From: a virus
DNA length: 36,572 nucleotides
IMG/VR virus record: IMGVR_UViG_3300009528_000460
Coordinates: 1 to 36,572 of that record
Reading direction: 5' to 3' (one strand)
The notes below the pieces were generated by a model. That model was not told where the DNA came from. It saw only the letters and a list, made by a program, of their open reading frames with translations, and ran no database searches. Positions 6,691-36,572 of the stretch are shown in pieces. The translations under genes and the position numbers were made by a program. Positions within the stretch are counted from its first letter, which is position 1. Every line of letters starts with the position of its first letter.

Positions 6691-6691
6691 T

Positions 6692-7507
6692 TTATGTGTC
6701 CTCCTTGCTTGCTTTCCATATCACCTCGCCATTGAGAAGCACAACATCGTAGTGAGGATTAGGACAGTTTGAGAGGTTCGGCTTCGAGAATGTCACCTTC
6801 TCTGCCATATCTGCCCACAAGGTTCTGGCCTCGGCAATGAGGTTCTCGTCACGGTCTACCCCATGAGCGACCATTCCTGCTGCAGCAGCCATTGCACAGA
6901 GGTCACCTTGCTTACACTCGAGGTCGAGAAGGGAGAGACCCTCCAATGGATTGCCTGGAGTCTCTCCGCCCAGGGCTACTACGACGGCGAGCCAGCGACT
7001 GATGATGCCCGAAGCGTCAGGCGGTTGTGTCAGCGAAGATACTTCTGCCAGGTTCAACCAGAAGTGATATTGGTCAGAGGTCTCTCGATAGTCAAGCATA
7101 GGTTCATCGAAGAAACGTGACATCTTGAAGTCAACCAGCATCGGGCGATCGTCCCGAATGATGATGTTCCCTTTCTTCCCTTTTGAAGCCAACCTAATCC
7201 ATGGATCGCCATGACTGATACGATGCTGCTGCAACGTCCAAAGAAGACGCACGCCGTTGCGCCGCAAAGCCTCGAGGTTCTTGACAGGTTGATTCACGCC
7301 GAGGTCCTCTTCAACGATGTAATCGTCCCCCTCTTCGAGGAGTTGAGGAGCAACACCAGTGCCGCTGAGTTCTCTAAGCATCCGTGCCTCGTTGTGGACA
7401 CCGTTTATGCATCTGGGACTAGCCTTCTCCCCGCCGTAGGCCCACTTTTTGACGATCCCGTTCTCTCTGTAGACGGTAAGTCCTTGATGGCCTCCGATGA
7501 TGCCCAT
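6692..7507 (-). CDS. Kinase-fold protein fused to a truncated methyltransferase-like domain
   Basis: Residues about 8-140 show the order of elements of RIO/Bud32/lipopolysaccharide-kinase-type small kinases: a Lys in IVKKW, the alpha-C Glu in NEARMLREL, hinge IVEEDLG, catalytic-loop HGDP with GNIII, and VDFKMSRF where DFG reads DFK. Residues about 190-271 resemble the first half of a SAM methyltransferase: LLDLECKQGDL, GVDRDENL, then YDVVLLNGEV, ending early without the C-terminal strands. The gene ends just before a complete methyltransferase at 6690. It may phosphorylate a sugar or glycan intermediate; a pseudokinase role is also possible because of DFK. The fusion is directly visible; activity is inferred. 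Confidence 0.6.
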   Translation of the reverse strand: MGIIGGHQGLTVYRENGIVKKWAYGGEKASPRCINGVHNEARMLRELSGTGVAPQLLEEGDDYIVEEDLGVNQPVKNLEALRRNGVRLLWTLQQHRISHGDPWIRLASKGKKGNIIIRDDRPMLVDFKMSRFFDEPMLDYRETSDQYHFWLNLAEVSSLTQPPDASGIISRWLAVVVALGGETPGNPLEGLSLLDLECKQGDLCAMAAAAGMVAHGVDRDENLIAEARTLWADMAEKVTFSKPNLSNCPNPHYDVVLLNGEVIWKASKEDT

Positions 7508-7514
7508 GCTTTAC

Positions 7515-8006
7515 CTACTTGTTCACCAGTTCCGCTATTGCCCGTCCCTGCATAAATCTCCGAGCAAGTGATAACAGAAGGATGTAATCAGGATAAGCAC
7601 CGGGCCGAGGATCTCCTCGGGTAGCCCTACCGAAATCAACGAGGCAGGGCACATTGGCTCTGACTACGATGTTAGAGCTGGACTCCAGATCATTGTGATG
7701 GACCCCGATCTTCCTCATATCCTCCAGTGCCGTGCAAGCGTGGCGCATGACGACCTCAAGGTTGGTGATTTCTTCGCCATCGCCGAGGTCTTCCATAAGG
7801 ATGTAGTTCGAGCCGACCTCGTAGACGTCAGGGAAGCAGATACTCTCGGCCAACTCCTGGAGGATATCCGCCTCGAACTTGATCCCTGCTGGCCTACCTC
7901 CTTGACAGTATTTCAAGAATCGTCCCTTTCCATCCCTGTATGCCCGCGACTGTGTACCTCTGTAATTCGTGGGTAGACAAGGAGAGAGGATGTCTTCAGG
8001 CTTCAT
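7515..8006 (-). CDS. Small RIO/Bud32-like kinase-fold protein
   Basis: The protein is 163 residues from ATG 8006, preferred over GTG 8009 on SD spacing (GGGAG); both overlap the preceding stop. Visible kinase elements are a Lys (RFLKY), Glu in FEADILQEL, hinge YILMEDLG, catalytic loop GVHHNDLESSSNIVV and an intact DFG (LVDFGRATR). The length matches minimal Bud32/RIO-type kinases rather than full Ser/Thr kinases. It is a diverged paralogue of the N-terminal half of its neighbour at 6692-7507 and retains the intact DFG that the neighbour lacks. The substrate is unknown; island context suggests a glycan or sugar. Confidence 0.65.
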   Translation of the reverse strand: MKPEDILSPCLPTNYRGTQSRAYRDGKGRFLKYCQGGRPAGIKFEADILQELAESICFPDVYEVGSNYILMEDLGDGEEITNLEVVMRHACTALEDMRKIGVHHNDLESSSNIVVRANVPCLVDFGRATRGDPRPGAYPDYILLLSLARRFMQGRAIAELVNK

Positions 8007-8719
8007 CACACCACTCCCTCTGCAATGGGGAGGCCTGCTTTGCTAGTGTCTATGCCTTCGATGCTGGCCTTCTCTCCGCCGATGTGGGCAAAAGCATCTC
8101 CGCGAGGGTTGATGAGACCAACCGGCCAGGCAACGCCGTACCGTGCCGCTGGAAACGCTGCCACAAGATGCTCCGTGTATCCTTGCTCCATATACTCAGG
8201 CCATGGGCCAACTGCCCTCTCCCACTCCACAGTCTCCAGCCTCGGGCCTCCGGCCCACACGTGCCTCTCTGCGCTGTCAGGATCAAGAGCCAGCCAATGA
8301 TGAAAGTGGGCAAGGACGAACTTTGCACGCAATTCCTGTGTCAGACCGATGTAGCCCATGCGCACACAGCCGAAAGTCCCGTCTCGAAGTACCGCCGCTA
8401 TGGGATCAAGGTTTAGCTCTCGCAGCAACTCCCAGTCATCCTCCAGAGGGAGTATGAGATCGGCGATCCTGTGAGTGATCTGCGTCGAGGCATTGTAGTT
8501 GCCTCCATATCCAGAGCGCTCGCTGTTGCTCATGCTGACATTGTCGCCAAATAGCGAGCGAGCGAGTTCAATCAGCTCGTCACGATAGTCCTGCGAGGAG
8601 CCGTCGTCAGCGATGTGCATCCAGAACTCCTCGGACGCCTTTAGGTTCTCGGCTACACTCGAGATGCACCTCTTCGCCACCTCAAGACGATCATACGTCA
8701 GGACGGTGATCACGATCAC
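8006..8719 (-). CDS. GT2 family glycosyltransferase
   Basis: The protein is 237 residues from GTG 8719, chosen because it forms a GTGA overlap with the upstream stop and has GGGAGG eight bases upstream; an earlier start in frame is less likely. It begins IVITVLTYDRLEVAKRCISS, then HIADDGSS, a GYGGNYN loop, and LILPLEDDWELL as the probable nucleotide-sugar metal site. The C-terminal half keeps a conserved tail (WAGGPRLETVEWERAVGPWPEYM). The architecture resembles the protein at 5222-6085 but without the zinc tail. Acceptor and sugar are unknown. Confidence 0.75.
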   Translation of the reverse strand: MIVITVLTYDRLEVAKRCISSVAENLKASEEFWMHIADDGSSQDYRDELIELARSLFGDNVSMSNSERSGYGGNYNASTQITHRIADLILPLEDDWELLRELNLDPIAAVLRDGTFGCVRMGYIGLTQELRAKFVLAHFHHWLALDPDSAERHVWAGGPRLETVEWERAVGPWPEYMEQGYTEHLVAAFPAARYGVAWPVGLINPRGDAFAHIGGEKASIEGIDTSKAGLPIAEGVV

Positions 8720-9852
8720 TTCGACACCTCCCAGGTCTGGAGCCAACACCCTTCGTATTCTGGGTGAGCCTGGATGATAGCCTTGGCATAGTTCCAGGCG
8801 GTGACTACACAGATGTCAGAGGGAGGTCGAGCAGGCCAGGGCACGATTGGCCAGCCTACGCCGGGCACAAAGCGGCCTGCACGCAAGGGCGAGTCATCAA
8901 TCACAACCGCGAACTCCAGTTCGGGAAGCTGATTGAACCACACCGTCGCTCGGCCTGCCGCTCCATAGGCTATTGGCATCTTAACACCGCTCAGTTCCCC
9001 GTAGAGAGTCGTCTCACGTCGCTGGCTGTAGGACTGGCGGAGAAGATCGAACGTCTCAACTCGACTGGTTAGCGGCTTGCCTATCACTCCTCTAAGGAAG
9101 CCCATCCGCAGCAAGCCTCCGTGCAAAGGCAGTCGCTTCACTTCGAGCACACTGAATCCGTGGCGTACCACAACGCGGGACAAGGAGCGAGCGCTGTACT
9201 CGGCCTTGTGCTCGTGGTAGACGGTATCCCACTGCCCAGTGCGCAACGTCGCGTCCAAGTCGTGAACCTCAACCCAGAACTCTCCGCCGGGCACCAATGC
9301 CTGAGCAGCAGCCTCAACAACATTGTCGATTGCGGTCATATGAGCGAGGCAGTTAGAGGCCAACACCAAGTTGAATTCTTGGCGTAATCCCAAGGCCGTT
9401 CCGAACGGCTCATTGATCAGTTCATACCTAACATCTCCGTTCTGGAGAGCAACAGCGGCTACGTCGCTCGGGTCTACACCCACGCAGTCCCAGCTACAGG
9501 GCAACTGGCGCAGCAGAACGCCGTCGTTGCATCCTATCTCTAGCACCTGCTGCCACCTGTGCCCAAACCTTAGTCGAAGGAACCTGGCGTATTTCTTGAA
9601 GTGATCAACCAGACTCTCCACAGCCGATGACGCATAGCAATACTTGCTGTATAAGACCTCATCCCCCACATCCTCCGCAACCTGTACCAGTTCGCAGCGG
9701 TCACACTGTAGCCATGTCAGCGGCAGCCTCTCGGCGGCGAGCGCCTGCTTTGCGCTGTCGGCGAACGCGCCGGCCAGAGGCATCGGCTCCATGGCGAAGA
9801 CTTCCCTCTCCAAAGGAGCACCGCAGCCACGACACTCATCCAGCAACCGCAT
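8716..9852 (-). CDS. Sugar C-methyltransferase-like protein (zinc N-terminus, SAM core, C-terminal domain)
   Basis: The protein is 378 residues from ATG 9852, picked for its TGATG overlap and GGGGAAG upstream; an in-frame ATG at 9870 exists. CRGC at residues 7-10 and CDRC at 50-53 form the zinc module typical of the TylC3/NovU sugar C-methyltransferase family (Methyltransf_13). A SAM motif VLEIGCNDGVLL follows at 103-114, then EFWVEVHDLD and HEHKAEYS, which corresponds to the family's YHEH active-site region. The C-terminal domain has YGAAGRATVWFNQL and IDDSP, as in the Methyltransf_14 fold. The family methylates keto-sugars bound to dTDP, consistent with the dehydratase and reductase genes upstream in this island. 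Confidence 0.8.
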   Translation of the reverse strand: MRLLDECRGCGAPLEREVFAMEPMPLAGAFADSAKQALAAERLPLTWLQCDRCELVQVAEDVGDEVLYSKYCYASSAVESLVDHFKKYARFLRLRFGHRWQQVLEIGCNDGVLLRQLPCSWDCVGVDPSDVAAVALQNGDVRYELINEPFGTALGLRQEFNLVLASNCLAHMTAIDNVVEAAAQALVPGGEFWVEVHDLDATLRTGQWDTVYHEHKAEYSARSLSRVVVRHGFSVLEVKRLPLHGGLLRMGFLRGVIGKPLTSRVETFDLLRQSYSQRRETTLYGELSGVKMPIAYGAAGRATVWFNQLPELEFAVVIDDSPLRAGRFVPGVGWPIVPWPARPPSDICVVTAWNYAKAIIQAHPEYEGCWLQTWEVSK

Positions 9853-10577
9853 CACTCGTATCTTCCCCATTCAGGCTGCTTCCATTCTCGAGTCAGATAA
9901 TCGCGGGTAGGTAAGATAATGCCTTGCCAATGAGCGCCCTTTGATCCCGTATCGCTGTCGTAATGCGGCCTGCAATTGTAGAGGAGCATCCCTCTGCCGA
10001 CTCCGACGATTCTCCCAGCCTCGCCCGAGTGACCTATCAAGACAGAAAGGAGCGCGGCGTCGGGGGCACCTGAAGCCGACTCTGGCGCGAAACCTCCGCA
10101 CCTCCGCCACAGGCTCTTCGTGACCATCGCCGCGTTACAGGGCTCGAATTGCTTGTCGTCTTCACGGCCATCGAGGTATTGAACCCCAACGAAATAGTAG
10201 GTTAGATCGCGAGCGTCTGGTTCTTCCTTCTCATAAGCGTCCAGGCAGCGCTCAAGGCATTCGGGATGCAGGAGGTCGTCCGCGCCGAGCATGAACACAA
10301 GCTCACTCTTGGCCAGCGCCACGCCGAAGTTGAAAGCATCACCCACGCCAACCCGCCAAGGAGTGCGCCAAATACGGCAACCCGCGAGCGGCCCGCTATC
10401 TACTTTCCAACTGCCATCGCCTAGCGGAAAAGCGTCGCCTAGCGGCAGCCCAGCCATATCATCAATGAGCAGAATCTCATCCGCCTCGCGCGTCTGGGCG
10501 CGCACGCTCGCCAGGCATTCCTCCAACCATTGCTGGTCAGTGGAACGTGGCCCGACAGGAATAGCGACGGTGATCAC
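9852..10577 (-). CDS. GT2 glycosyltransferase, tandem paralogue A
   Basis: The protein is 241 residues from GTG 10577, with GGAGG at good spacing and a GTGA overlap. GT-A signatures are ITVAIPVGP, SVRAQTREADEILLIDDMA and the DxD-like FMLGADDLLHPECLE. The C-terminus (LTREWKQPEWGRYE) is nearly identical to that of the adjacent gene at 10574-11260, and the core motifs correspond throughout, so the two arose by duplication. Divergence elsewhere suggests distinct acceptor or donor use. It sits mid-operon between the paralogue and the C-methyltransferase. Confidence 0.75.
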   Translation of the reverse strand: MITVAIPVGPRSTDQQWLEECLASVRAQTREADEILLIDDMAGLPLGDAFPLGDGSWKVDSGPLAGCRIWRTPWRVGVGDAFNFGVALAKSELVFMLGADDLLHPECLERCLDAYEKEEPDARDLTYYFVGVQYLDGREDDKQFEPCNAAMVTKSLWRRCGGFAPESASGAPDAALLSVLIGHSGEAGRIVGVGRGMLLYNCRPHYDSDTGSKGAHWQGIILPTRDYLTREWKQPEWGRYE

Positions 10578-11260
10578 TCGTACCTCCCCCAGTTCGGCTG
10601 CTCCCATTCCCGGGTCACAAGATCGCGGACAGTATGGATTACTCCTAACCAAGTTCCCCTACCCGCTGAGTCTTGCTCAGGATGCATGCGCACGTTACAG
10701 AGTGGCACACCTTGTTTCACATGATACAAATTGCCGCTCCCTTTCTTACCATATAGAATTGAGATGAGGATAGAATCAGGTGATGCCTCCGCAGCAACTG
10801 GGAATCCCCCCATGTGACGCCACAATCCCTTCGTAACCATCGCGGCAATGCTAGGCAGATCCTGAATCGGCGGGTCTGGTAGCGGAGGCGCATATCCTTC
10901 TTCACACTCAAATCGAATAGTCACGTGATAATAGCCAAGCGGGTCGCAGTGCCGCCGTTCATATTCCTCCACGCAGGCTGCTAGGCATTCCGGCTCGAGC
11001 CAGTCGTCAGCGCAAAGGATGTAGACCAGATCGTTCTTGGCTAAGGACACACCACAGTTAATTGCCCCTGCCGTCCCTAGCCGCCAAGGGGCCTGCCAGA
11101 TGCGACAGCCCTCTCTGTCGTCCAGCGCCGCCATATCATCGATCAGCAGGATCTCGTCCACCGGGTACGTCTGTGATCGGACGCTCTGCACACACTCGTC
11201 GAGCCACTTTTGATGGTGCGGCTCGGGGCCAACCGGGATGACAACCGTCACGCCGCGCAT
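10574..11260 (-). CDS. GT2 glycosyltransferase, tandem paralogue B
   Basis: The 228-residue protein starts at ATG 11260 with AAGGAG upstream; a GTG at 11251 overlapping the preceding stop is an alternative. It opens VTVVIPVGPEPHHQKWLDE, continues VDEILLIDDMA, and has YILCADDWLEPECLA as the putative metal-binding site. The tail VTREWEQPNWGRYE matches paralogue A. It shares a 13-bp overlap with the RmlD-like gene before it. Specificity is unknown. Confidence 0.75.
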   Translation of the reverse strand: MRGVTVVIPVGPEPHHQKWLDECVQSVRSQTYPVDEILLIDDMAALDDREGCRIWQAPWRLGTAGAINCGVSLAKNDLVYILCADDWLEPECLAACVEEYERRHCDPLGYYHVTIRFECEEGYAPPLPDPPIQDLPSIAAMVTKGLWRHMGGFPVAAEASPDSILISILYGKKGSGNLYHVKQGVPLCNVRMHPEQDSAGRGTWLGVIHTVRDLVTREWEQPNWGRYE

Positions 11261-12015
11261 GCAGCTATCTCCTTGGCGTAGGCCGTGAGAACTTCCTCCA
11301 CAGCAGGCAACTCCTCATCTGGCTTCAGCGCCCGGTGCATATGAGGGAACTCCTTGTGGACAACGGTCACAGGCAACCCCAATTCCCGAACGAACATCTC
11401 CACCATCCAACCCTTTGTGGTCACTTGGGGCGATGCTACGTGCACCACGCCAACCCTGCTGCCCCCGGCCAGCTCTACCAGCTTTGCAGCCATCACGTCC
11501 GCCGTCGTACCTGTCCATTCGGCGTTGTCCCAAGCCTCCACCTCGCCCTCAGCATGCAGGAGCCAGCGCAGGAAGCCTGCTTCCTTGCTAATGAAGGAGC
11601 CTCTGACGTTCAGCACATGGCCTGCCTCAACCTCGCCAGCCAGTTTGGTGCGACCGTAGAGATCATCGGGATCAGGCGAGTCATCCGAGGCGTGGAGAAC
11701 TTTCCTGCGGCCACTGAACACACAGTCGGTGCTCATGTGGACGACGCGAATCCCCCGTAGAGCGAGGCAGGCAAGGATGTGCGGGCCGAGAGCATTCGTT
11801 TTCACCATGTCTATCGAGAATGCATCGAGAAGTAGCCCTGCGCAGTTGATGATAGCGTCCGGCCCTGCAACCTGTGCAGTCCTCACGACGATCCCCAGAT
11901 CCTCGATAGGGCACTCCCAATGCGTAGTGGACAGGAGCTCGTGGCCCCTGGCTGTGACCGCCTTGGCTACGTGGGAGCCGAGAACACCGTTCGCGCCAGT
12001 GACCCAGATCTTCAT
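11248..12015 (-). CDS. RmlD-like NDP-4-keto-sugar reductase (extended SDR)
   Basis: The 255-residue protein starts at ATG 12015 with TTGGAGG upstream. It shows the SDR cofactor loop GANGVLG (residues 7-13), INCAG, the MSTDCVFSG segment and the YGRTK catalytic Tyr/Lys at about 120 and 124. STDxVFxG and the Y-G-x-x-K pair match dTDP-4-dehydrorhamnose reductase. Length is slightly short of the usual 290-300 residues. Together with the dehydratase at 12663-13595 it could convert an NDP-sugar to a deoxysugar used by neighbouring transferases. Exact stereochemistry cannot be read from sequence. Confidence 0.75.
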   Translation of the reverse strand: MKIWVTGANGVLGSHVAKAVTARGHELLSTTHWECPIEDLGIVVRTAQVAGPDAIINCAGLLLDAFSIDMVKTNALGPHILACLALRGIRVVHMSTDCVFSGRRKVLHASDDSPDPDDLYGRTKLAGEVEAGHVLNVRGSFISKEAGFLRWLLHAEGEVEAWDNAEWTGTTADVMAAKLVELAGGSRVGVVHVASPQVTTKGWMVEMFVRELGLPVTVVHKEFPHMHRALKPDEELPAVEEVLTAYAKEIAACAA

Positions 12016-12031
12016 CTAGACCTCCAAAACA

Positions 12032-12661
12032 CTACGGCCATCTGCCTATCTTGTCGCACCTAAACTCGACGCCTAGGTGAGAAACCACTACCTCACCCGC
12101 AATCTCATCTGCGGAAGCGGCGATCCTATACAGCCGAAGATCGAGCTCATCATCGCCTGCGATAACATCGGCTCCGTCGATGTCGTAGTCAATCGTAAAC
12201 TCTACGTGGAAAGACATGAACTGCGCTGCTGCCCCCGTAGGTGTCTCAACCGTTACGGTGTTGAAGATAACAGGTACAAGGTCCCCATCGGAGTGATGTT
12301 CCCACTCCAGCCGGAGCTGGAAGTTCTTGTTGGTGTTGGCGGTGTCGATGTAGCAATGTATGTGAACGATAATATCGCTCGCCTCATCGTATCTGTCAGG
12401 TACGCAGATGTTGAAGAATAGCTCCTCCTGATCGGCGGCGTAGACAGGCAGGCTGAATCCATCACAGATCCCTCGGGTCACCCTGGTAGGTCTCCCTACG
12501 CCCAGAATCCTGGTGTAGTCCAGATCGGGACGCTCCTCATGCCAGTACAGAGCGGTGATCGCCTGCGCCTGCCTCAACAGCAGCGCAGCGCTAGCCTCCG
12601 CCGATTGCTGCCCAGCGAGGCCGGCCAGTTGCGCGAGCGTCAGTTCTAATGATTGCACCAC
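12032..12661 (-). CDS. Putative phage virion protein (beta-rich), within the sugar island
   Basis: The protein is 209 residues from GTG 12661, preceded by GGAGAAGG and lying 1 bp after the dehydratase stop. An Ala/Leu-rich helical N-terminus (residues 1-40) is followed by alternating hydrophobic strands, including IIVHIHCYID, FQLRLEWEH and FTIDYDIDGAD. The C-terminal EIAGEVVVSHLGVEFR style is one I associate with uncultivated-phage structural proteins. No enzyme motif is visible. Its location between dehydratase and reductase genes makes it a candidate glycan acceptor. Family and role are uncertain. Confidence 0.55.
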   Translation of the reverse strand: MVQSLELTLAQLAGLAGQQSAEASAALLLRQAQAITALYWHEERPDLDYTRILGVGRPTRVTRGICDGFSLPVYAADQEELFFNICVPDRYDEASDIIVHIHCYIDTANTNKNFQLRLEWEHHSDGDLVPVIFNTVTVETPTGAAAQFMSFHVEFTIDYDIDGADVIAGDDELDLRLYRIAASADEIAGEVVVSHLGVEFRCDKIGRWP

Positions 12662-12662
12662 G

Positions 12663-13595
12663 TCAAACCTTCTCCGCGTCCTCGATCAGTTCTCGTAGCT
12701 CCACCACGGAAATCATATACCTAGGAGTATGGGAGGCTATGGTAAAGGCTTCCTCAGTGGCAGGACTGCCTGGCGGCAACAATTCGACGAAAGTCCCGTG
12801 TCGACGAGTGCGGACTGACTCCTCGTGATGAAGCAGCAACTCATGTCTCTTCTCGCCGGGACGCTCTCCGATGACTTCGACTGCCACGTCCTTGTAAGTG
12901 GCAGCCCGAGCAGTATCTAAAAGGTTCGCTGCTCGCGCGGGAGGGATAAGGATGCTGCCCGAATCTAGGTTGGTCAAGGCGCGTACGATCACAGCTATCG
13001 CCTCATCCACACCCATCCAGAACCTGGTCATGTGAGGGTTGGTTATCTTGACTTTGCCGAACTCCTTCTCTTGCTTGCGGAACAGGGGGATTACAGAGCC
13101 TGTGCTGCCAACGATGTTACCATAGCGGACGCAGACAAACTCTGGCTCCTTGTGGTACTGCTGCTCCTCCTGGAATAATCTCTCCATGATTGCTTTCGTC
13201 ATGCCGTAGGTATTGACCGGCTGGACGGCCTTATCTGTGGAGATGCCTACGACTCGCTTCACCCCACAGCAGCGAGCAGCTTCCATCACGTTGCTAGAAC
13301 CATTCACATTCACAGATATGCACTCGGCGGCATTGAATTCCGCCTCGGGGATATACTTCACCGCAGCGGCATGTACCACCAGTTCGTGTCCATCCATTGC
13401 AACACGCATCCGAGGCAAATCTCGGACGTCGCCCAGGATGTAGCGGGCGAAGGGATAGCGTTTGCGGGCCTGCTCCTGCAGGGTCTCATCCCGAGAGTAG
13501 ACGGTGACCCCCCAATCGAGGTCTCCTCTTTCCACCTGGCGGAGAATCGCCTTGCCTAGAAATCCCGACCCGCCAGTCACAAAGACCTTCGGCAT
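12663..13595 (-). CDS. NDP-sugar 4,6-dehydratase (FlaA1/CapD/PseB-like, Polysacc_synt_2)
   Basis: The protein is 310 residues from ATG 13595, chosen because AGGAGGG lies four bases upstream and the product then begins MPKVFVTGGSGFLG; an upstream extension of 42 residues lacks family similarity. The NAD(P)-binding loop is at 8-14, and the hallmark STDKAVQPVNTYGMTK holds the catalytic Tyr130/Lys134. RYGNIVGSTGSVIPLF and MTRFWM also match the PseB/CapD group acting on UDP-GlcNAc or a related NDP-hexose. It is the first sugar gene after the capsid gene and probably supplies the 4-keto-6-deoxy intermediate. The exact product (5-inverting or retaining) is undetermined. Confidence 0.85.
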   Translation of the reverse strand: MPKVFVTGGSGFLGKAILRQVERGDLDWGVTVYSRDETLQEQARKRYPFARYILGDVRDLPRMRVAMDGHELVVHAAAVKYIPEAEFNAAECISVNVNGSSNVMEAARCCGVKRVVGISTDKAVQPVNTYGMTKAIMERLFQEEQQYHKEPEFVCVRYGNIVGSTGSVIPLFRKQEKEFGKVKITNPHMTRFWMGVDEAIAVIVRALTNLDSGSILIPPARAANLLDTARAATYKDVAVEVIGERPGEKRHELLLHHEESVRTRRHGTFVELLPPGSPATEEAFTIASHTPRYMISVVELRELIEDAEKV

Positions 13596-13609
13596 ACAAC
13601 CCTCCTGGG

Positions 13610-13645
13610 GAGAGGGCAGAGCGAAAGGAGAAACCCTGCCCTCTC
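13610..13645 (-). terminator. Hairpin with 10-bp perfect stem between capsid and dehydratase genes
   Basis: Arms GAGAGGGCAG (13610-13619) and CTGCCCTCTC (13636-13645) pair perfectly around a 16-nt loop. It lies just upstream of the SD of the dehydratase and downstream of the capsid gene in the direction of transcription. No U-tract follows, so it is more likely a transcript-stabilising or attenuating structure than a full terminator. Confidence 0.4.
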
Positions 13646-13652
13646 TCACTTC

Positions 13653-13683
13653 GTCCAGATGGGGGTGCGACCACCTCCTGGAC
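13653..13683 (-). terminator. Second hairpin downstream of the capsid gene
   Basis: Outer arms GTCCAG (13653-13658) and CTGGAC (13678-13683) enclose an inner GGGGTG/CACCTC-like stem with a tiny loop. It starts about 64 bp past the capsid stop and precedes the 10-bp hairpin. The 151-bp gap between capsid and dehydratase holds these two structures and no convincing gene. Partial termination would favour capsid mRNA over the sugar genes; that is inference. Confidence 0.4.
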
Positions 13684-13746
13684 TTCTCGCTATTCGGTTG
13701 TTCGGTGATGAGCCCGCGCACACATGCCCACCACCAAGCTAGTCAG

Positions 13747-22477: not shown

Positions 22478-22805
22478 TTTGCCTTACCTCTCTGAGATAG
22501 TTGTTGATTGTCCTCCTGCCTACACCCATGGCGGCAGCAATCTGGAGAGTGCTATGGCCCTCCGACCACAACCCCACGGCGACAGCCCGCCGCTCCCTGG
22601 CCTCCTGAATCTTGTGAAGATCATATCCCCACTGGATAGCCATGCTGATCCTGGGCTCGACGCTCGTAATCTCCATCATATGAGGCTCCACATATCGACA
22701 GTCCGGCAGCGGGCACTCGAAGCAGCAACCCGCCTCCTTGCATCCGCAAGTCGGCTGGTGGTGACAGATCTGGGCGGGATTCTTTACAATAACAGTTGAA
22801 GGCAT
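22467..22805 (-). CDS. Cys-rich plus helix-turn-helix protein between terminase and portal
   Basis: The 112-residue protein overlaps the terminase stop by 22 bp and the portal start by 11 bp. The N-terminal 40 residues hold about seven Cys (CHHQPTCGCKEAGCCFECPLPDC), suggesting one or two zinc sites. The C-terminal 40 residues are a clear helix-turn-helix of the Hin/sigma-region-4 type: GHSTLQIAAAMGVGRRTINNYLREV. It could bind DNA at the packaging or late-gene level, for example as an accessory to the terminase. Its exact role is unknown. Confidence 0.6.
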   Translation of the reverse strand: MPSTVIVKNPAQICHHQPTCGCKEAGCCFECPLPDCRYVEPHMMEITSVEPRISMAIQWGYDLHKIQEARERRAVAVGLWSEGHSTLQIAAAMGVGRRTINNYLREVRQNGE

Positions 22806-24328
22806 TCGTACGTCCCCATGCTGGCCGCCACTGCCAGGTCTATCTTCTTGCTCGGAGACTTCTTGACTATGCGGAGCTTGCTGTCCTCGCCCTTCTGCAA
22901 CTTTGCCCGAGCATTCAGCAGATGCTCTCGGACCTCGGGCAGCCCAGGGTGGGACAGACGCTTCTGGACGATGAGGTCGTAGAGCTGCCGATCGGCCTGT
23001 AGACGCAGCGCACCTTGGTCAAAGGAGATTGTCCAGATGCTGAGGTCGCGATTGATTCGCTGCATCATGTCCGTCAACTGGAACTGGTCGTAGGTGATCT
23101 CCACTACATTGTAGGGAGGGATGAGATTCTTCTCCTGGCAGGCAGGACAGCCCTCGCGCACATGAGCGAACTGCGGCTCCTGGCTGTGGCCGAGACGGCA
23201 GCCGCCGAGGATGAGAGACCTGATAAAGCACTCTGGCTCGGCGTAGTCAATCTCCCCTCCGCCCTTGGGAGGAGTCCATCTGCGGGCAGCCTGGATGATG
23301 ACATCGTCGGGCCGCTGCGGGTGCCGCGTCACTGCTACTACGGCGAAGCAGTCGCCAGTACTGGCCGCATCCACGGAGATGACTACGGGGATCTTGCCAA
23401 TCAGTAGAGGTCGCGCACGGCCAGCATCCCTATTTGCCTCAAGAGCAACCTCGTTGGGGAGGAACTGTGGCAGCGTCTTATCCTCGCAGGCGTCCCAGAG
23501 CTCTATATGAATGAACGGCGCAGTGTCCTCGCCGGCCAGGGCATCGTCGGGCGAGTCGGGTGCGTAGAAGTTCAAGCCCGCCGCCGTCAGATTCCCTGCC
23601 TGCGTCTCGTACCACGCCGGGTCCCGCCCAGGCCTCTGTCGCCAGTCCTGGAAGAAGGGGTGGAGCTGGGAGGCACCCTCCTCGGCGGCATCCCAGAGCT
23701 CCTTGAGGTAGTTGTCCTCGCCCGCGCCGCGCGAGAGCACATGGCAGGTGCCGCCTGGCGCGATGGTGGAGGCGACAGCGTTCCAGGTAGCCTCCGCGAA
23801 GGGCATGCGCGCGATCTCGTCCACGTGCGCGTGTATACAACTTTGCTCTATGGAGACGTTCGGCCCGGCGGCATAGGTGGAGATGGTACGGACATCGTCC
23901 GGCCCCATGCGGAAACGCAGGCTCCTCTCCGTATCCCCGCCCCTCTCGTCGCTGAGGATCTTGGGCCGAATGGCCTCTGGCAGCCGCTGCAGGCCGAATC
24001 GGACGTAGCCGAGGAGCTCCTTGGCGGCCTCAAAGTCCCGACTGAACAGGTGCACCCTAGCGTTCGCGGCGGTCAGAGCCTTGAAGCCATCCCAGGCACA
24101 CTCCAGCTCTGTAAAGCCGAGCTTGCCAGCCTTGAGCGCCAGGAGCCAGGGATGCTCCAGCATCACGCCGAGGAAGGCCTCCTGCCCTGGCCAGAGCTCT
24201 GAGAAGCGCCGAACCTGCCCGGTCTCCCTGTCCACGAAGTGCCACAGAGGCAGGAAGGTCCGGAAGGACATCAGGGCAACCCTGCGCCCCAGTTCCTCCC
24301 TAGCCTCTGCCAGCCTGGTATCTGCCAT
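22784..24328 (-). CDS. terL: Terminase large subunit
   Basis: The protein is 514 residues from ATG 24328, chosen because it makes a TAATG junction and follows GGGGAAG; an in-frame upstream ATG at 24370 overlaps the previous gene. The ATPase has a deviant Walker A (LKAGKLGFTE, about residues 65-74) and a Walker B VDEIARM (D170/E171). The RNase H-like nuclease shows Asp in VVISVDAAST (D320), ITYDQF (D414) and KKIDLAVAAS (D497). An H-x-C-P-x-C segment (REGCPACQEK) lies inside the nuclease domain and may bind zinc, which is not usual. It packages DNA into the procapsid using the portal. Confidence 0.85.
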   Translation of the reverse strand: MADTRLAEAREELGRRVALMSFRTFLPLWHFVDRETGQVRRFSELWPGQEAFLGVMLEHPWLLALKAGKLGFTELECAWDGFKALTAANARVHLFSRDFEAAKELLGYVRFGLQRLPEAIRPKILSDERGGDTERSLRFRMGPDDVRTISTYAAGPNVSIEQSCIHAHVDEIARMPFAEATWNAVASTIAPGGTCHVLSRGAGEDNYLKELWDAAEEGASQLHPFFQDWRQRPGRDPAWYETQAGNLTAAGLNFYAPDSPDDALAGEDTAPFIHIELWDACEDKTLPQFLPNEVALEANRDAGRARPLLIGKIPVVISVDAASTGDCFAVVAVTRHPQRPDDVIIQAARRWTPPKGGGEIDYAEPECFIRSLILGGCRLGHSQEPQFAHVREGCPACQEKNLIPPYNVVEITYDQFQLTDMMQRINRDLSIWTISFDQGALRLQADRQLYDLIVQKRLSHPGLPEVREHLLNARAKLQKGEDSKLRIVKKSPSKKIDLAVAASMGTYECLQLLL

Positions 24329-24567
24329 TACTTCCCCTTGCTTCGATGCCAGGGCCAGATTGCTCGCCACATCCTCCTCAGTTCCTCTCGCGGATGCTCC
24401 AAAGATTCAAGTGGGTGCTCTGTCGGGGGGAGCGGCTCTATGATGTTTCCTTTCCTATTGGGTTGGATTCTTTCAGCCATCACCTTGTCGCGGACCACGC
24501 CGAGGAGGATAATGACCTGCGTCAGCAGCTTGTAGGCTAAGAGCCTCGTACGACTGGCCTTCGGCAT
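24328..24567 (-). CDS. 79-residue unknown protein upstream of the large terminase
   Basis: Starts at ATG 24567 with GGAGAG upstream and ends at a TAATG overlap with the terminase gene. The N-terminal 30 residues are hydrophobic/basic (RLLAYKLLTQVIILLGVVRDKV), possibly a membrane-interacting or amphipathic helix. The C-terminal part is Pro- and Trp-rich and basic. It is the first gene behind the promoter at 24582-24610. No family is recognised. Confidence 0.55.
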   Translation of the reverse strand: MPKASRTRLLAYKLLTQVIILLGVVRDKVMAERIQPNRKGNIIEPLPPTEHPLESLEHPREELRRMWRAIWPWHRSKGK

Positions 24568-27619: not shown

Positions 27620-28168
27620 CTAAACTGCCTCCACGTGGGCGACGCCTTCTTGCTCCTCCATCATTTCTTCAACTGTCTGCATCAGATGGCAACCACAGGC
27701 GTATTGCTTCTCGCGCTTGCGGCTACAAGGGCCAGACACGACAAACCTAGCCGTCTGTAGACAACCAATACTGCCCTTCTCCTCCTCTTGCTTGATGTAA
27801 ACCATGCTGCACAGAGGCTTGGAAGCACCCAAACGCTCCGCAAAGCCTCTAAGCCTCTCCGCCGTCGCCGCCGGGTCCAGACGCGCGTCGGCCTCCTCGA
27901 GCGTCTCCTTCTCCGCTCCGGCGAGCACTGCAACAAGGCTATCAAGCACCTCCTTGCCTGCCGCGACGGCGGCGACGAGAGTGTCAGCGATGCGCTCTTG
28001 CTCCGTCTCCTGCTCCACGCCACGCAGTCCGGTGACGATACTCCTCAGTATCTGACGCTCGGTGTTGGGAGTAGATCGCCAGAGCCGAATTGCTCTCTCG
28101 AGCCAGTTAGACACAGCCCCCAGCGCCCCCTGGTCATTGGGCACCCATATCCTTATCAGGCGTTTCAT
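27620..28168 (-). CDS. 182-residue unknown protein with Cys-rich tail
   Basis: ATG 28168 has GGAGAAGCG upstream. Residues 1-120 are helical, including QILRSIVTGLRGVEQETEQERIA and an Ala-rich segment. From about 115 the sequence changes character: four or five Cys (CSMV, GCLQ, PCSRK, ACGC) before a His/Glu-rich end (EEMMEEQEG). The Cys tail may bind zinc or an Fe-S cluster. No family is recognised. It follows the OMP decarboxylase gene by 17 bp. Confidence 0.45.
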   Translation of the reverse strand: MKRLIRIWVPNDQGALGAVSNWLERAIRLWRSTPNTERQILRSIVTGLRGVEQETEQERIADTLVAAVAAGKEVLDSLVAVLAGAEKETLEEADARLDPAATAERLRGFAERLGASKPLCSMVYIKQEEEKGSIGCLQTARFVVSGPCSRKREKQYACGCHLMQTVEEMMEEQEGVAHVEAV

Positions 28169-28185: not shown

Positions 28186-28809
28186 CTAGAACTGTCGATA
28201 CAAAGCATGGCCAATGGCTGCTAGAGCCTCGTCGGGGTCCCTCGCCCGAGTAAGTGGTCGACCAACAATTAGGTAGTCCGCCTGAGACTCAGCCGCCTCC
28301 TTGAATGTCGCCACCTGCCACTGGTCATCCACTGGAGCTTGGCCAAAGCGCAGACCTGGACAAAGTGTGGACAGATAAGGAGCCTCTCGCTTGACGTAGC
28401 CTACCTCTGCCACAGGACAGACCACGCCGTCTACAAAACCCTTACACACCGCCAGTTTGCTCTCAAAGTCCGTAGGATACGGAGGTAGACTAGTCAGCCT
28501 GAGCACCCCGAACATCTTGAGACCCGGCTGAGCAGCTTCCTTCGCAGCTTGGAGCATCTCTACATCGCCATCTACGTGGATTGTGAAGCCCCACACACAG
28601 TAGGGTATCCAACGCACGGCCTCCGCTACGACAGAGGGAATGTCTAGGAACTTGCCGTCATAGAGAACCTGATAGCCCATCTCAGCCACTTCCAGCGCCG
28701 CTCGAGAGCCCACCTCAGTGATAAGAGGTAGACCCACCTTGCATATCGAGAGCTTACCAGCGTAGCGCTTGGCCTCCTCCAGAGTGTTGGCGGCTAGGAT
28801 AATCTCCAT
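28186..28809 (-). CDS. pyrF: Orotidine 5'-phosphate decarboxylase
   Basis: The 207-residue protein is close to the usual 210-240. It shows the ODCase active site D-x-K-x-x-D as YDGKFLDIP (D51, K53, D56), the upstream Lys in CKVGLP (K24), CPGLRFG in place of the SPG-x-G loop, and the phosphate-binding IVGRPLTRARDP near 181-192. The usual first-strand Asp is Asn in LAAN, a substitution worth noting. It would convert OMP to UMP. A phosphoribosyltransferase of the OPRTase type lies two small genes upstream in the same operon, so the last two steps of UMP synthesis are encoded together. Confidence 0.8.
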   Translation of the reverse strand: MEIILAANTLEEAKRYAGKLSICKVGLPLITEVGSRAALEVAEMGYQVLYDGKFLDIPSVVAEAVRWIPYCVWGFTIHVDGDVEMLQAAKEAAQPGLKMFGVLRLTSLPPYPTDFESKLAVCKGFVDGVVCPVAEVGYVKREAPYLSTLCPGLRFGQAPVDDQWQVATFKEAAESQADYLIVGRPLTRARDPDEALAAIGHALYRQF

Positions 28810-28812
28810 TGG

Positions 28813-29016
28813 CTACTTGCCCACCATGAACATTCGATAGTCCCGCCCTGCCTTGTTGGCATGCTCCTGGGCTGCGGCCTTCAACTTGCCGCGCTCTTCT
28901 GGCTCTAGGACGGGATTCGCCTGGGTTGCCAGCACTGCACACCGCACGCTCTCGTTGCTGTCCAACAGAATGCCGAGAGCGATCACCAAATCGTTGCGAT
29001 CTATCTTATTCGCCAT
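28813..29016 (-). CDS. 67-residue unknown protein between the pyr genes
   Basis: ATG 29016 follows GGAGAATAGCG. The sequence is a compact helical protein (LVIALGILLDSNESVRCAVL; KLKAAAQEHANKAGRDYRMFM). It overlaps the preceding membrane-peptide gene by 11 bp and ends 3 bp before pyrF. No motif is recognised. Confidence 0.5.
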   Translation of the reverse strand: MANKIDRNDLVIALGILLDSNESVRCAVLATQANPVLEPEERGKLKAAAQEHANKAGRDYRMFMVGK

Positions 29017-29179
29017 CGCTATTCTCCTTTCCTAGAAACTTCGCTCCGAACTTGCACCAGCGGTCAAGCATCCACTGTCCTACTTCCACAAGGAGCCAGT
29101 CACCGCCTAGCCACGTGCAGAGCTTCCGCGTCAAAATCCAAACCAAGAGGCTACAGGATGTGGCCAGGATGATCTCCAT
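29006..29179 (-). CDS. 57-residue membrane peptide
   Basis: ATG 29179 is chosen for GGAGGGATGAG upstream. Residues 2-13 (EIILATSCSLLVWIL) form one short hydrophobic segment followed by basic and Trp-rich sequence. It could be a small membrane or amphipathic peptide in the pyr operon. Function unknown. Confidence 0.45.
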   Translation of the reverse strand: MEIILATSCSLLVWILTRKLCTWLGGDWLLVEVGQWMLDRWCKFGAKFLGKENSDGE

Positions 29180-29180
29180 C

Positions 29181-29648
29181 TCATCCCTCCAGCAGCGGCA
29201 GGTCAATCTTGGCCCAGGCCGAAGTAGCCGAGACGACAATCCCTGGAGGCACTCGGGCCACTACCACCAGAGCCCATCGAGTGTCCTTGACCTCCCCGAT
29301 GCTCGCGCCGGTGGTGAGAACGTCGTCCACGGCGATGATCGCAGATCCCGCTATCGAGATTCCTGGTTCTCCCAGAAGTGCAAAGGTTCCTCCCATCTTA
29401 GTAGCGATAGCCTTTGCCCAGGGAATGCCTCCTCTCGGGACGCCTATGAAGTGGAAGAGCTTGTGGCCAGGGAAGATTCGCCGTAGCTCCCTCTCCCAGC
29501 AGTCCAGCACGAGCTCTCGCACCTTCTTATCCGCAAAGATCGACTCACAGTTCACGAACCAATGGCTCTCGCTTCCGCTGTGAAGAACAACGGGAGGATC
29601 GTAGAAAGTCAGGGGCAGAGAGTGGATACCTACTATTTGCTTTCCCAT
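29181..29648 (-). CDS. pyrE: Orotate phosphoribosyltransferase-like protein
   Basis: The 155-residue protein is shorter than the usual 200-plus. It has the OPRTase N-terminal signature S-G-x-x-S as LHSGSESHWFV (24-33), GVPRGGIPWAKAIATKMGG (69-87), and the PRPP-binding IAVDDVLTTGAS (105-116), which fits the OPRTase V-D-D-V-x-T-T-G-x-S pattern. The shortening is mainly in the hood and C-terminal part. It would make OMP from orotate and PRPP, feeding the PyrF downstream. Alternatively it could be another type I phosphoribosyltransferase; the SG-x-x-S signature and pyrF context favour OPRTase. Confidence 0.75.
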   Translation of the reverse strand: MGKQIVGIHSLPLTFYDPPVVLHSGSESHWFVNCESIFADKKVRELVLDCWERELRRIFPGHKLFHFIGVPRGGIPWAKAIATKMGGTFALLGEPGISIAGSAIIAVDDVLTTGASIGEVKDTRWALVVVARVPPGIVVSATSAWAKIDLPLLEG

Positions 29649-30218: not shown

Positions 30219-30481
30219 CTCTTCTTTGCTCCCTTCTCCGCAGCTCTCCTCGTTGCCCGATTAGGCCTCCAGAGCTTCTTGCTGGGCTTCAGGAGCTTAT
30301 CCACCGTCGATTGTGCCAGGGCGATGGCTGACTCGAACTGGGCGCTCCAGATGATGTCCAGGATGACGTCCTTCTTGGTGATGCTGACAGCGTTCATCTT
30401 CTCGATCTTGGCGCGGAGAGGTATATTGCGAGCGTAGGCCAAGAACTTCGCAGCCTCGCCAACGGCCTGTAGAGAGTTCAC
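30215..30481 (-). CDS. 88-residue basic helical protein after the endolysin
   Basis: GTG 30481 makes a TAGTG junction with the amidase stop and has GGGGGAAA before it; an ATG at 30493 is an alternative. The sequence is helical (SLQAVGEAAKFLAYARNIPL, DIIWSAQFESAIALAQSTVD) and ends in a very basic tail (RATRRAAEKGAKKR). There is no membrane segment long enough for a holin. It could bind nucleic acid. Role unknown. Confidence 0.5.
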   Translation of the reverse strand: MNSLQAVGEAAKFLAYARNIPLRAKIEKMNAVSITKKDVILDIIWSAQFESAIALAQSTVDKLLKPSKKLWRPNRATRRAAEKGAKKR

Positions 30482-31212
30482 TATTTCCCCCATCCATAGA
30501 AGTCCATGATCTGCCGAGCCTCCTGCCAGGACTCCTCGGTGCCAGCCAAGGCCAAGCCGACGATCCGCATGACCGACAGGGCCTGCACCCGCATCTTCGC
30601 CATGTCCTCCCGCACCCCCTTGTTCCCAGCGTCTGGTCGATAGCCCAGCAACTCCTTCACGATTTCGCGCACTCGTTCGTCGTCCATGTCGTCCTCCTTT
30701 AGCGTTGGCCCCCACTCCTCCCAGGTCCCGCCGGGGCAGGTGGTGTTCTGGAGCCTTATGTTACGATGCGCTTCCACTATGAGCTTGGGAGCACCAGCGC
30801 CGAGGAACTCATGGTAGCGTCGCCTGATGTCAGCGATACACTCACGTGCCGCCGCCAGATGAGAAGGCAGAGGCACCGCGTTGGTAAAGTTGCCGATAAG
30901 GACAGTACCGATGGCTCGATGGTTCATCCGCCTCACGTGGGCGCGGCCAAGGTTGTAATCACTGAGGCGATAGGCCCGGCCCGAGGCGAAGGCAGCGTTG
31001 TGGTAGCCGAATCCGCCGAGCCCCCAGGCCCGGTGCATAGCATCGATGTCCAGTAGGTGCTGAATCTCTTGCTCCTGGGTAGCTTGAACCCAAGTATTCC
31101 AGTTGGTGTGGCTCATAGTGTGGTGCAGGGCGATATACTCCACCAGGGAGATGTCATCGATGGTAAACCGACCTGTGTAGGCTGAGGGGATTAGGTGGCG
31201 GATGTCAATCAT
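30481..31212 (-). CDS. N-acetylmuramoyl-L-alanine amidase (endolysin)
   Basis: The protein is 243 residues from ATG 31212, with GGGGGAGTGAG upstream. The Amidase_2/PGRP fold has its zinc ligands visible: His in ALHHTMSH (H30/H31), His in EAHRNIRL (H149) and Cys in NTTCPGG (C159); GFGYHNAAF supplies the conserved Tyr (Y70). IGTVLIGNFTN and the PSHLAA segment also match the family. Residues 170-243 are a helical tail of unknown role. It cleaves the amide bond between MurNAc and L-Ala to release progeny. It has no signal peptide, so a holin or another route is needed. Confidence 0.85.
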   Translation of the reverse strand: MIDIRHLIPSAYTGRFTIDDISLVEYIALHHTMSHTNWNTWVQATQEQEIQHLLDIDAMHRAWGLGGFGYHNAAFASGRAYRLSDYNLGRAHVRRMNHRAIGTVLIGNFTNAVPLPSHLAAARECIADIRRRYHEFLGAGAPKLIVEAHRNIRLQNTTCPGGTWEEWGPTLKEDDMDDERVREIVKELLGYRPDAGNKGVREDMAKMRVQALSVMRIVGLALAGTEESWQEARQIMDFYGWGK

Positions 31213-31213
31213 C

Positions 31214-31453
31214 TCACTCCCCCTCTCTGTCGGCGGGCAGGATGAGGACAAGGCAATCTTGCGGCTCAATTCCCTCCTCTAGCCAGCCTTCTATAGCTAC
31301 GTCGCATGAGCCTGTCTCATCGCGGAAGATGCGTCCCTTCTCCACCGCTATCGGCTCCCTGCTCCCATAGGGGAAAGAGAGGGCGGCAGCATAACCCTGG
31401 TCGTAGCCCTGCTTATGGGCTTTACGCATACACTCTATTATGTGTTGGTGCAT
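31214..31453 (-). CDS. 79-residue unknown protein
   Basis: ATG 31453 with GGAGGGGTGAG upstream; it ends 1 bp before the amidase start. A His/Lys-rich helix (HQHIIECMRKAHKQGYDQGY) is followed by an acidic C-terminal beta-like part (DVAIEGWLEEGIEPQDCLVLILP). No motif is recognised. It is part of the lysis-region operon. Confidence 0.5.
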   Translation of the reverse strand: MHQHIIECMRKAHKQGYDQGYAAALSFPYGSREPIAVEKGRIFRDETGSCDVAIEGWLEEGIEPQDCLVLILPADREGE

Positions 31454-34752: not shown

Positions 34753-35238
34753 CTACTCGGCATGATCCTTTCCAATCTGCAATCTTCTTCCATATTCTGC
34801 CATCAGCAAGGCTTCGGCCTCGCCATCTGATAGTCGACCCAGCTCGGGCCATAGGCGGGACGCCTGGATCTTGGCCGCGTTCTTGTCTTTCGGCATGTCT
34901 CGGAGCATAACGGCCTTCCAGGTCTGCGGTGCCACGAGGAGATAAGGAATGCCGAGAGCCACCAAGATGCCTTCCCAAAGGCCGAAGCCTCGGCCAAAGG
35001 AAAAGGAGCTCGCAACGCCTTGCTTGGGCATGGAATGGACGGATTCTAGGATGGCAAATCTATTCCCCGGCCCGCCGAGGGGAAGACGATCCTGAATAAT
35101 CTCAGACATCTCCTGTGCTCGATACTGTCTCCGCTTCCCCACCTTGATAGTCGGCGTCCGCACAGCCTCAGCGGTCGCGTCAAGAAAGCCTACAGCACCA
35201 TCTAGGCCGGGGTCTATTCCTATGTAAAGCTGCGTCAT
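34753..35238 (-). CDS. RuvC-like Holliday junction resolvase
   Basis: The protein is 161 residues from ATG 35238 (AAGGAG upstream); an in-frame ATG at 35310 behind AGAAGG is an alternative. The RNase H-fold acidic residues are visible: Asp9 in YIGIDPGLDGAVGF, Glu65 in AILESVHSMP, and Asp138/Glu140 in LSDGEAEALLMAEYGRR. The FGRGFGLWEGIL and APQTWKAVML segments match phage RuvC relatives. It cleaves four-way DNA junctions before packaging. It follows the promoter at 35358-35386 and is followed within 2 bp by a long inverted repeat. Confidence 0.8.
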   Translation of the reverse strand: MTQLYIGIDPGLDGAVGFLDATAEAVRTPTIKVGKRRQYRAQEMSEIIQDRLPLGGPGNRFAILESVHSMPKQGVASSFSFGRGFGLWEGILVALGIPYLLVAPQTWKAVMLRDMPKDKNAAKIQASRLWPELGRLSDGEAEALLMAEYGRRLQIGKDHAE

Positions 35239-35357
35239 CCTGCTCTGCTCCTTAGCTGGGACTGGCACAACCGCACTCATGCCGATTTGGTCGGTGCAAA
35301 CCCACGACATGAAAAGCACCTTCTCTTAAGTTGCCCTCGCCAGCCCCAGCATCCTTT

Positions 35358-35389: not shown

Positions 35390-35974
35390 CTAAAACGGTG
35401 AAAGTCGAGAAGAATTCCAGCTAGGAGGGCTCGGTGTGGCAGCAGGAGGCAAACGGCCCTCAAGGATCTCCATGACCTGCTCGAATGCCCGGCGGTGATC
35501 TATCCAGACAACTCGCTGTCCGGCTGCCCTGGCTCGCTCATCATGCCTGCGAGCGTGATCAAACTTAGTTCGCACATTCTGCTCGTTGATCGGCTTGCCC
35601 TTGTTCCTCGCCTGGATCCTCTCGCAGCAGACCTCGAGCGGAGTGTCCATAAGGGCCCAGATGAAATCGCCGCAGTCCTCAGCCAGCTGTGCCCAGCGAC
35701 TGAAAATGTCGCTGACGATAAGACCCTCGAAGATAACGTGGCCCAGAGCGGCGTACTTGCGCACTAGAACCTCAACACTAGCTACAGAACCCAACCTGTC
35801 ACAACCGCCGCATCCGCCTGGGTAGGGACCTACCACCCGGATGTTCCCCTTCAGGAGGTATCCTTCTATCTTCCCGTCCTCGCCGAGGATCGGCTGCGGG
35901 GCCAGAGCCTCCATGATTTGGCGAACCAAGTGCGTCTTGCCGGATCCGCTGCAGCCCCTTATATTTAGGATCAT
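35390..35974 (-). CDS. P-loop kinase-like protein, copy 2
   Basis: The protein is 194 residues from ATG 35974 (GGAG seven bases upstream). Walker A GCSGSGKTH (residues 7-15), a middle EGYLLKGNIRVVGPYPGGCGGCD with a possible metal-binding Cys pair, Walker-B-like HVIFEGLIVSD, and a lid-like segment DTPLEVCCERIQARNKGKP. The layout is that of a small nucleoside/polynucleotide-kinase-type NTPase. The C-terminal WIDHRRAFEQVMEIL is shared with copy 1 upstream. The substrate is unknown. Confidence 0.7.
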   Translation of the reverse strand: MILNIRGCSGSGKTHLVRQIMEALAPQPILGEDGKIEGYLLKGNIRVVGPYPGGCGGCDRLGSVASVEVLVRKYAALGHVIFEGLIVSDIFSRWAQLAEDCGDFIWALMDTPLEVCCERIQARNKGKPINEQNVRTKFDHARRHDERARAAGQRVVWIDHRRAFEQVMEILEGRLPPAATPSPPSWNSSRLSPF

Positions 35975-36572
35975 TGACAATCTCCATCACTTGCTCAAAA
36001 GCGTGCCTGTGGTCAATCCAGACAGCCTGCTCACCCGCCTCGATAGCTTTGCGATAGTTGGTAAGGCAGGAGTTGTACATGCTTTCTAAAGTAGAAGTAT
36101 TGAAAGCTCTCCCGCCATTTCGCTTCAAGATGCGGTCTATACAGACGTCTATCGGAGTGTTCATAAAAGCCCAAACAAATCCCCTAACGTCCCGGGAAAG
36201 GTTGTACCAGCGTGAGAAGCCCCGACTTACTAGTAGACCCTCGAATAAAACATGCCCCTGTTTGACCCATTGTCTGACAAGAGTGTCTACCAGCGGTACG
36301 CTTCCCCAACTGCCTCTTGGACGTTTTCCTCTCTCCAACTTGCCAACGATTTTTTCGATATCAATTGCAAGGAGACCTAAATCCGAGAAAGTTGTTAGTA
36401 ACTCCCCCTTACTCCCTGGCCATCTCTTCAGCAACTTCAAGATAGCGGCATTGAAAACCAACCTGTCGCAACCACCGCACTCGCTTCTGTAGTCTCCTAC
36501 AACGCGAATGTTGCCGCGCAGTAGATATCCTTCTGGTTTGCCATCGGATCGTATCAGCGGTTCTGGCGGACC
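35799..36572 (-). CDS. P-loop kinase-like protein, copy 1 (N-terminus outside the window, overlapping out-of-frame end)
   Basis: The frame is open from the right edge. It shares EGYLLRGNIRVVG, CGGCDRL, HVLFEGLLVSRGFSRW, the lid-like DVCIDRILKRN and WIDHRHAFEQVMEI with copy 2. Its Walker A lies beyond the window. After EIVND the frame runs 176 bp into copy 2 in another reading frame (35799-35974), so its last 58 residues have no counterpart in copy 2. This looks like a tandem duplication whose junction removed the original stop. Confidence 0.65.
   Translation of the reverse strand, partial: GPPEPLIRSDGKPEGYLLRGNIRVVGDYRSECGGCDRLVFNAAILKLLKRWPGSKGELLTTFSDLGLLAIDIEKIVGKLERGKRPRGSWGSVPLVDTLVRQWVKQGHVLFEGLLVSRGFSRWYNLSRDVRGFVWAFMNTPIDVCIDRILKRNGGRAFNTSTLESMYNSCLTNYRKAIEAGEQAVWIDHRHAFEQVMEIVNDPKYKGLQRIRQDALGSPNHGGSGPAADPRRGREDRRIPPEGEHPGGRSLPRRMRRL

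Follow-up and report, generated by a model that had tools for sequence, protein, structure and literature searches.

A phage contig linking a probable orotidine-5'-phosphate decarboxylase to an OPRTase-like protein without the catalytic loop

Among the genes of UMP synthesis, pyrE is known from cyanophages (PMC9983427) and is enriched in marine viromes (PMC4022391). The cyanophage gene, phage-borne like the one analysed here, is described as a host-type OPRTase gene, and it is set apart from ours by that description only. A literature search returned no paper describing a PyrF from phages or an OPRTase family that lacks the loop, which is weak evidence since subscription papers were mostly outside the search.

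The enzymes themselves are well characterized. In E. coli OPRTase, a flexible loop of residues 99-109 enters the neighbouring subunit and carries the essential K103, acetylation of which lowers kcat 150-300 fold and leaves a pyrE-deficient strain uncomplemented (PMC10087573). For orotidine-5'-phosphate decarboxylase (ODCase), a signature of D, K, D, K, D, H, P and R has been published, the Lys and Pro of which are unique to ODCase within its superfamily (PMC3584854). In the yeast enzyme, D37 contacts the ribose 3'-OH and Thr100', four residues past the last Asp of DxKxxD, the 2'-OH; the single substitutions D37G and T100'A each carry a penalty of about 2.5 kcal/mol with OMP, activity is abolished in D91A, K93A and D96'A, and K59 is critical (PMC12874384). 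Here we describe a phage locus which departs from both enzymes, the new elements being a loop-less OPRTase-like phage family and ribose-site substitutions in a linked PyrF.

The locus and its surroundings

The window, i.e. the whole stretch of DNA that was analysed, is an IMG/VR virus record of 36,572 bases carrying TerL, MuF/portal and amidase genes, and the PyrF and PyrE-like genes are therefore phage-borne. Both are found at the coordinates given in an earlier note, on the minus strand, with SGxxS, VDDVLTTGAS and DxKxxD as it described, and the two tiny genes that it saw between them are present as ORFs of 57 and 67 aa. The features referred to below are, by position:

22784..24370, minus strand: terminase large subunit, marking the contig as phage
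27620..28168, minus strand: 182-aa gene without assigned function, directly downstream of pyrF, with the Shine-Dalgarno sequence GGGAGGAG
28186..28809, minus strand: pyrF, 207 aa, last of the four genes in transcription order
28813..29016, minus strand: small ORF of 67 aa, third in order, ending 3 nt before pyrF
29006..29179, minus strand: small ORF of 57 aa, second in order, with its ATG at 29179 and a hydrophobic N-terminal part
29181..29648, minus strand: PyrE-like gene, 155 aa, first in transcription order
30481..31269, minus strand: amidase endolysin, upstream, placing the PyrE-like/pyrF pair close to a lysis gene
35390..35980, minus strand: 5-hydroxymethyl-dU DNA kinase-like gene, with homologues in other viral contigs
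35799-36572, minus strand: second 5-hydroxymethyl-dU DNA kinase-like gene, the outer neighbour, cut by the contig end

The PyrE-like gene and the 57-aa ORF are 1 nt apart, the two small ORFs overlap by 11 nt, and 3 nt separate the 67-aa ORF from pyrF. In frame, the PyrE-like gene, the 67-aa ORF and pyrF have a codon usage like that of the phage itself (+0.2 to +0.4 bits per codon), a signal absent from their other frames. No known family was matched by the 67-aa ORF, nor by the longer 77-aa frame of the 57-aa ORF. The 57-aa ORF (29179) and pyrF (28809), both on the minus strand, have near-identical first 18 bases, ATGGAGATyATCCTrGCC, and both proteins start MEIILA; this shared start may represent chance or a small duplication.

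Further away, the two kinase-like genes, with relatives of 32-41% identity in the viral contigs L149-L154, are a possible sign of hypermodified or otherwise modified phage DNA. The minus-strand stretch 6085-13721 constitutes a sugar/glycan-type cluster with methyltransferases, three family-2 glycosyltransferases, an RmlD-like reductase and a polysaccharide-biosynthesis epimerase/dehydratase. At 34753-35319, also on the minus strand, a protein with YIGIDPGLDGAVGF resembles RuvC-type Holliday junction resolvases by eye, its best Pfam match (DUF460, E 0.014) not being confident. Relatives of the phage sought via the TerL/portal region were not found.

The phage PyrF and its active site

The product of 28186-28809 is well supported by sequence and predicted fold as an orotidine-5'-phosphate decarboxylase, in agreement with the PyrF half of the earlier proposal that the locus encodes the last two steps of UMP synthesis. 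With Pfam OMPdecase it reaches 1.2e-27, or 97.7 bits for a cut-off of 27. With NCBIfam TIGR01740 pyrF the E-value is 5.8e-26, although 91.5 bits falls slightly short of the cut-off of 92.3, and with NF001273 it scores 116.9 against a cut-off of 193. All PDB sequence matches at E <1e-9 are ODCases bar one dual-named entry, the best being 8cso (1e-20), and the AlphaFold model forms a complete eight-stranded barrel (pLDDT 95) to which Foldseek places the same Klebsiella ODCase, 8cso, nearest (E 2e-16). We also considered 3-hexulose-6-phosphate synthase and similar barrel enzymes, and rejected them since the ODCase-unique Lys and Pro are both kept and the best such model reached only E 0.1.

The catalytic tetrad K24, D51, K53 and D56 is present, with the last three arranged as D51-x-K53-x-x-D56, as are H78, S107, P151, Q163 and R184. 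Equivalents of the yeast-essential D91, K93 and D96 and of the critical K59 (PMC12874384) are thereby all kept, together with seven of the eight signature positions. The exception is the first-strand Asp, for which the earlier note had correctly read Asn: among 107 PyrFs from genome contigs and viral or phage records, the column of Asn8 holds Asp in 103, the rest being three gaps and one Thr. In the model Asn8 comes after a predicted strand at residues 2-7; a smaller alignment had instead put Ala6 at this position. Another substitution, absent from the earlier note, is Val60 at the near-invariant Thr position after DxKxxD (Thr in 103/107), and Gln165 replaces a conserved Arg two residues past the phosphate-gripping Q163. 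Overall, 30 columns of the alignment are near-invariant, and this protein departs at 7 of them, more than any other sequence does. Asn8 and Val60 occupy the positions of yeast D37 and Thr100', and thus the residues for the chemistry are present while both sugar-hydroxyl contacts are changed; activity towards OMP could be low because of these two replacements and Gln165.

Compared with bacterial PyrFs (NF001273/TIGR01740; PDB 8cso, 1eix), the phage protein shares the fold, DxKxxD and the active-site Lys, His, Pro, Ser, Gln and Arg, but with 207 aa it is shorter by some 25-30 residues, and it differs at D22 (here N8), at the Thr after DxKxxD (V60) and at the Arg two past the gripper Gln (Gln). 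The highest identity found is 40% (L047), and no relative emerged when the single sequence was scanned against viral and bacterial collections, or from an alignment-based scan of viral contigs. Phylogeny had been proposed as a means to trace host derivation; the tree, which was run on PyrF, gives the window protein the longest branch (3.32 changes per site) and no supported position, and hence does not place a host origin.

Other viral contigs do carry PyrF. A scan with short patterns, which is not exhaustive, returned 23 such contigs, some of which resemble isolate or host DNA; a terminase is also carried by 6 of the 18 tested, and 8 of the 23 records contain a clear pyrE match, 7 of these above the family cut-off. 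Many of the PyrFs group together in the tree, apart from that of the window. This large-phage clade (L013, L020, L022, L025-L028, L030 and kin) comprises virus-contig ODCases like that of the window, several accompanied by a terminase gene and some by a canonical pyrE; unlike the window protein, however, its members keep the first-strand Asp and the Thr. In the phage-like contig IMGVR_UViG_3300033412_000004 (L021/L030), canonical pyrE and pyrF overlap by 4 nt, near polynucleotide kinase, RNA ligase and methylase genes. The earlier note had called for a survey of such adjacent pairs. This contig, together with the large-phage PyrFs, exemplifies phage-borne UMP synthesis more clearly than the window does. 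A linked pair is thus rare, as that note supposed, but not unique, and phage pyrE alone is not unusual. PyrF matches in the INPHARED phage records were all set aside as probable host DNA: the two annotated loci that were read place pyrF amid host genes (lapB-pyrF-yciH; rpsA-ihf-pyrF), and the Enterococcus and Listeria/Staphylococcus records are unannotated.

A loop-less PyrE-like family

By sequence and model, 29181-29648 is assigned a type I phosphoribosyltransferase fold with a PRPP motif. It passes Pfam Pribosyltran (28.4 bits, cut-off 26.3), its best NCBIfam model is pyrE TIGR00336 (1.4e-6), where 28.2 bits falls far under the cut-off of 106.8, and its motifs read L22-H-S-G25-x-x-S28-H-W-F-V and V107-D-D-V-L-T-T-G-A-S116. 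Fold matches in the PDB are led by the OPRTases 2aee (Foldseek E 3e-8), 2yzk and 4ohc. In NCBIfam, and in the PDB by sequence as well as by fold, OPRTase therefore ranks first; assignment to another phosphoribosyltransferase, which the earlier note had named as refuting its reading, did not result. With hhalign, for which an OPRTase alignment was the sole family compared, the match was 97.9%.

The protein shares the SGxxS region, the glycine loop, the PRPP motif and the core strand order with bacterial OPRTases (TIGR00336; PDB 2yzk, 2aee), but it is without the catalytic flexible loop and has a shortened helix past the PRPP motif, which together explain why PyrE had been noted as short. A profile of 38 sequences, mostly OPRTases with a few adenine phosphoribosyltransferases or partial sequences, can be aligned between the SG and PRPP motifs, with a gap in the window protein over the K-x-x-K-x-H-G loop. 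Congruent with this, 39 residues separate the glycine motif from DDV, as opposed to 47-63 in the OPRTases measured, and the next Arg follows TTG after 17 residues, compared to 25 in most OPRTases. In the predicted model (mean pLDDT 80, built from 31 divergent sequences), strand 88-91 is joined to strand 103-111 by an 11-residue coil devoid of Lys and Arg. Of the helix that follows the PRPP loop, most is missing and 4 residues remain. One alignment sited the deletion in the helix and strand before the loop; this was rejected, as the model retains both elements.

No PyrE-like relative was recovered by a single-sequence scan of viral contigs, nor in the INPHARED phage records. An OPRTase-alignment scan, however, yielded L148, a 46-kb viral contig with a protein whose identity to that of the window is 47%, or 49% over residues 13-134, and a scan with the window-L148 pair added L156 and L157, 99.9% identical contigs from one phage, whose protein is 39% identical to that of the window. 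The proteins of the window, L148 and L156 (133-155 aa) share LHSGxxSHWFV, GGIxWA, DDVxTTGAS and both deletions, so that all three lack the equivalent of E. coli 99-109 with K103, and each conserves the PRPP motif. An assembly error in the PyrE-like gene was rejected because two more phage lineages have the same deletions. Judged from the sequences, divergence within the family is of a purifying type, with dN of 0.5-0.6 against dS of 1.5-2.6, the latter near saturation.

In L156 the gene lies close to TerL and portal genes, and it is adjoined by a DUF4326 gene (L156:8689-8943) and an R2K ATP-grasp gene (L156:9191-9907). In L148 it is close to primase/helicase, GH25-like lysin and DNA methylase genes, and this record also holds homologues of two other window genes. 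No ODCase was detected in the L148, L156 and L157 records, each of which may be incomplete. The occurrence of the loop-less protein where PyrF is not detectable argues for a role of its own, and since at least three phage lineages retain the shortened form, this role is probably other than ordinary UMP synthesis. The second half of the earlier proposal, conversion of orotate to OMP, is consequently weakened, as the K103 loop is missing and the loop-less form is conserved in two phage lineages where PyrF was not found. On the basis of sequence and model, it is not secure that the PyrE-like protein carries out the fifth step of UMP synthesis; a different residue might stand in for K103 in loop-less phosphoribosyltransferases.

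Possible roles of the pair

The explanation we favour, and hold to be somewhat likely, is an active phage ODCase with a loop-less, OPRTase-derived partner that is no ordinary OPRTase. PyrF is probably a working enzyme, judging by its residues and modelled barrel, and would most likely decarboxylate host-made OMP, or a close analogue, so that the phage obtains a UMP-type pyrimidine nucleotide beyond host control. Within minutes of infection by a phage, a host shuts off its UMP synthesis (PMC10986495), and a phage PyrF would be useful because the host can shut down its pyr genes upon infection. The partner would belong to an undescribed, minimal phage family, in which the PRPP/ribose-phosphate motif and the orotate-side SGxxS are kept and the catalytic loop is lost. 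It probably binds PRPP or a nucleotide, and may transfer phosphoribosyl groups slowly or with a different specialisation, or serve without catalysis in binding or regulation as a partner; the loss of normal OPRTase activity is what we infer from the conserved deletion.

A working PyrE-PyrF pair that takes orotate to UMP for the phage, as first suggested, appears rather unlikely to us. The tight spacing in one operon, OPRTase as the best family for the PyrE-like protein and the intact PyrF tetrad all fit such a pair, and canonical pyrE is known in phages (PMC9983427, PMC4022391), with an adjacent canonical pyrE-pyrF in one other phage-like contig. What counts against it is the catalytic loop, missing here and in two related phage proteins, and the records of these relatives, in which no PyrF was found. 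The changed sugar contacts lend themselves to a different reading, which we consider improbable, where both proteins together make or process a non-standard pyrimidine nucleotide with altered sugar or base, e.g. 2'-deoxy or base-modified, for modified phage DNA. N8 and V60 replace the 3'-OH and 2'-OH contacts (PMC12874384), with decarboxylation and most phosphate-binding residues kept, and 5-hydroxymethyl-dU kinase-like genes reside on the same contig. However, wild-type yeast ODCase handles 2'-deoxyOMP poorly and the phage enzyme may do no better, 6 kb separate the kinase-like genes from the pair, and the L148 record yielded no such gene. Least probable, in our judgement, are decaying relics of captured host genes: the lost loop, the lost near-invariant active-site residues and the long PyrF branch fit decay, but the frames are intact with phage codon usage, the PyrF barrel is confidently predicted with its tetrad intact, and three lineages conserve the loop-less form, with dN clearly lower than dS.

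If the loop-less proteins of these phages are active, they would represent a phosphoribosyltransferase that works although it lacks a loop described as essential in the OPRTase literature; if inactive, they would be a conserved phage binding protein on an enzyme fold. In either case a likely automatic label of 'PyrE' would be corrected, and the linked ODCase offers a natural test of how far a very proficient enzyme depends on two ribose contacts.
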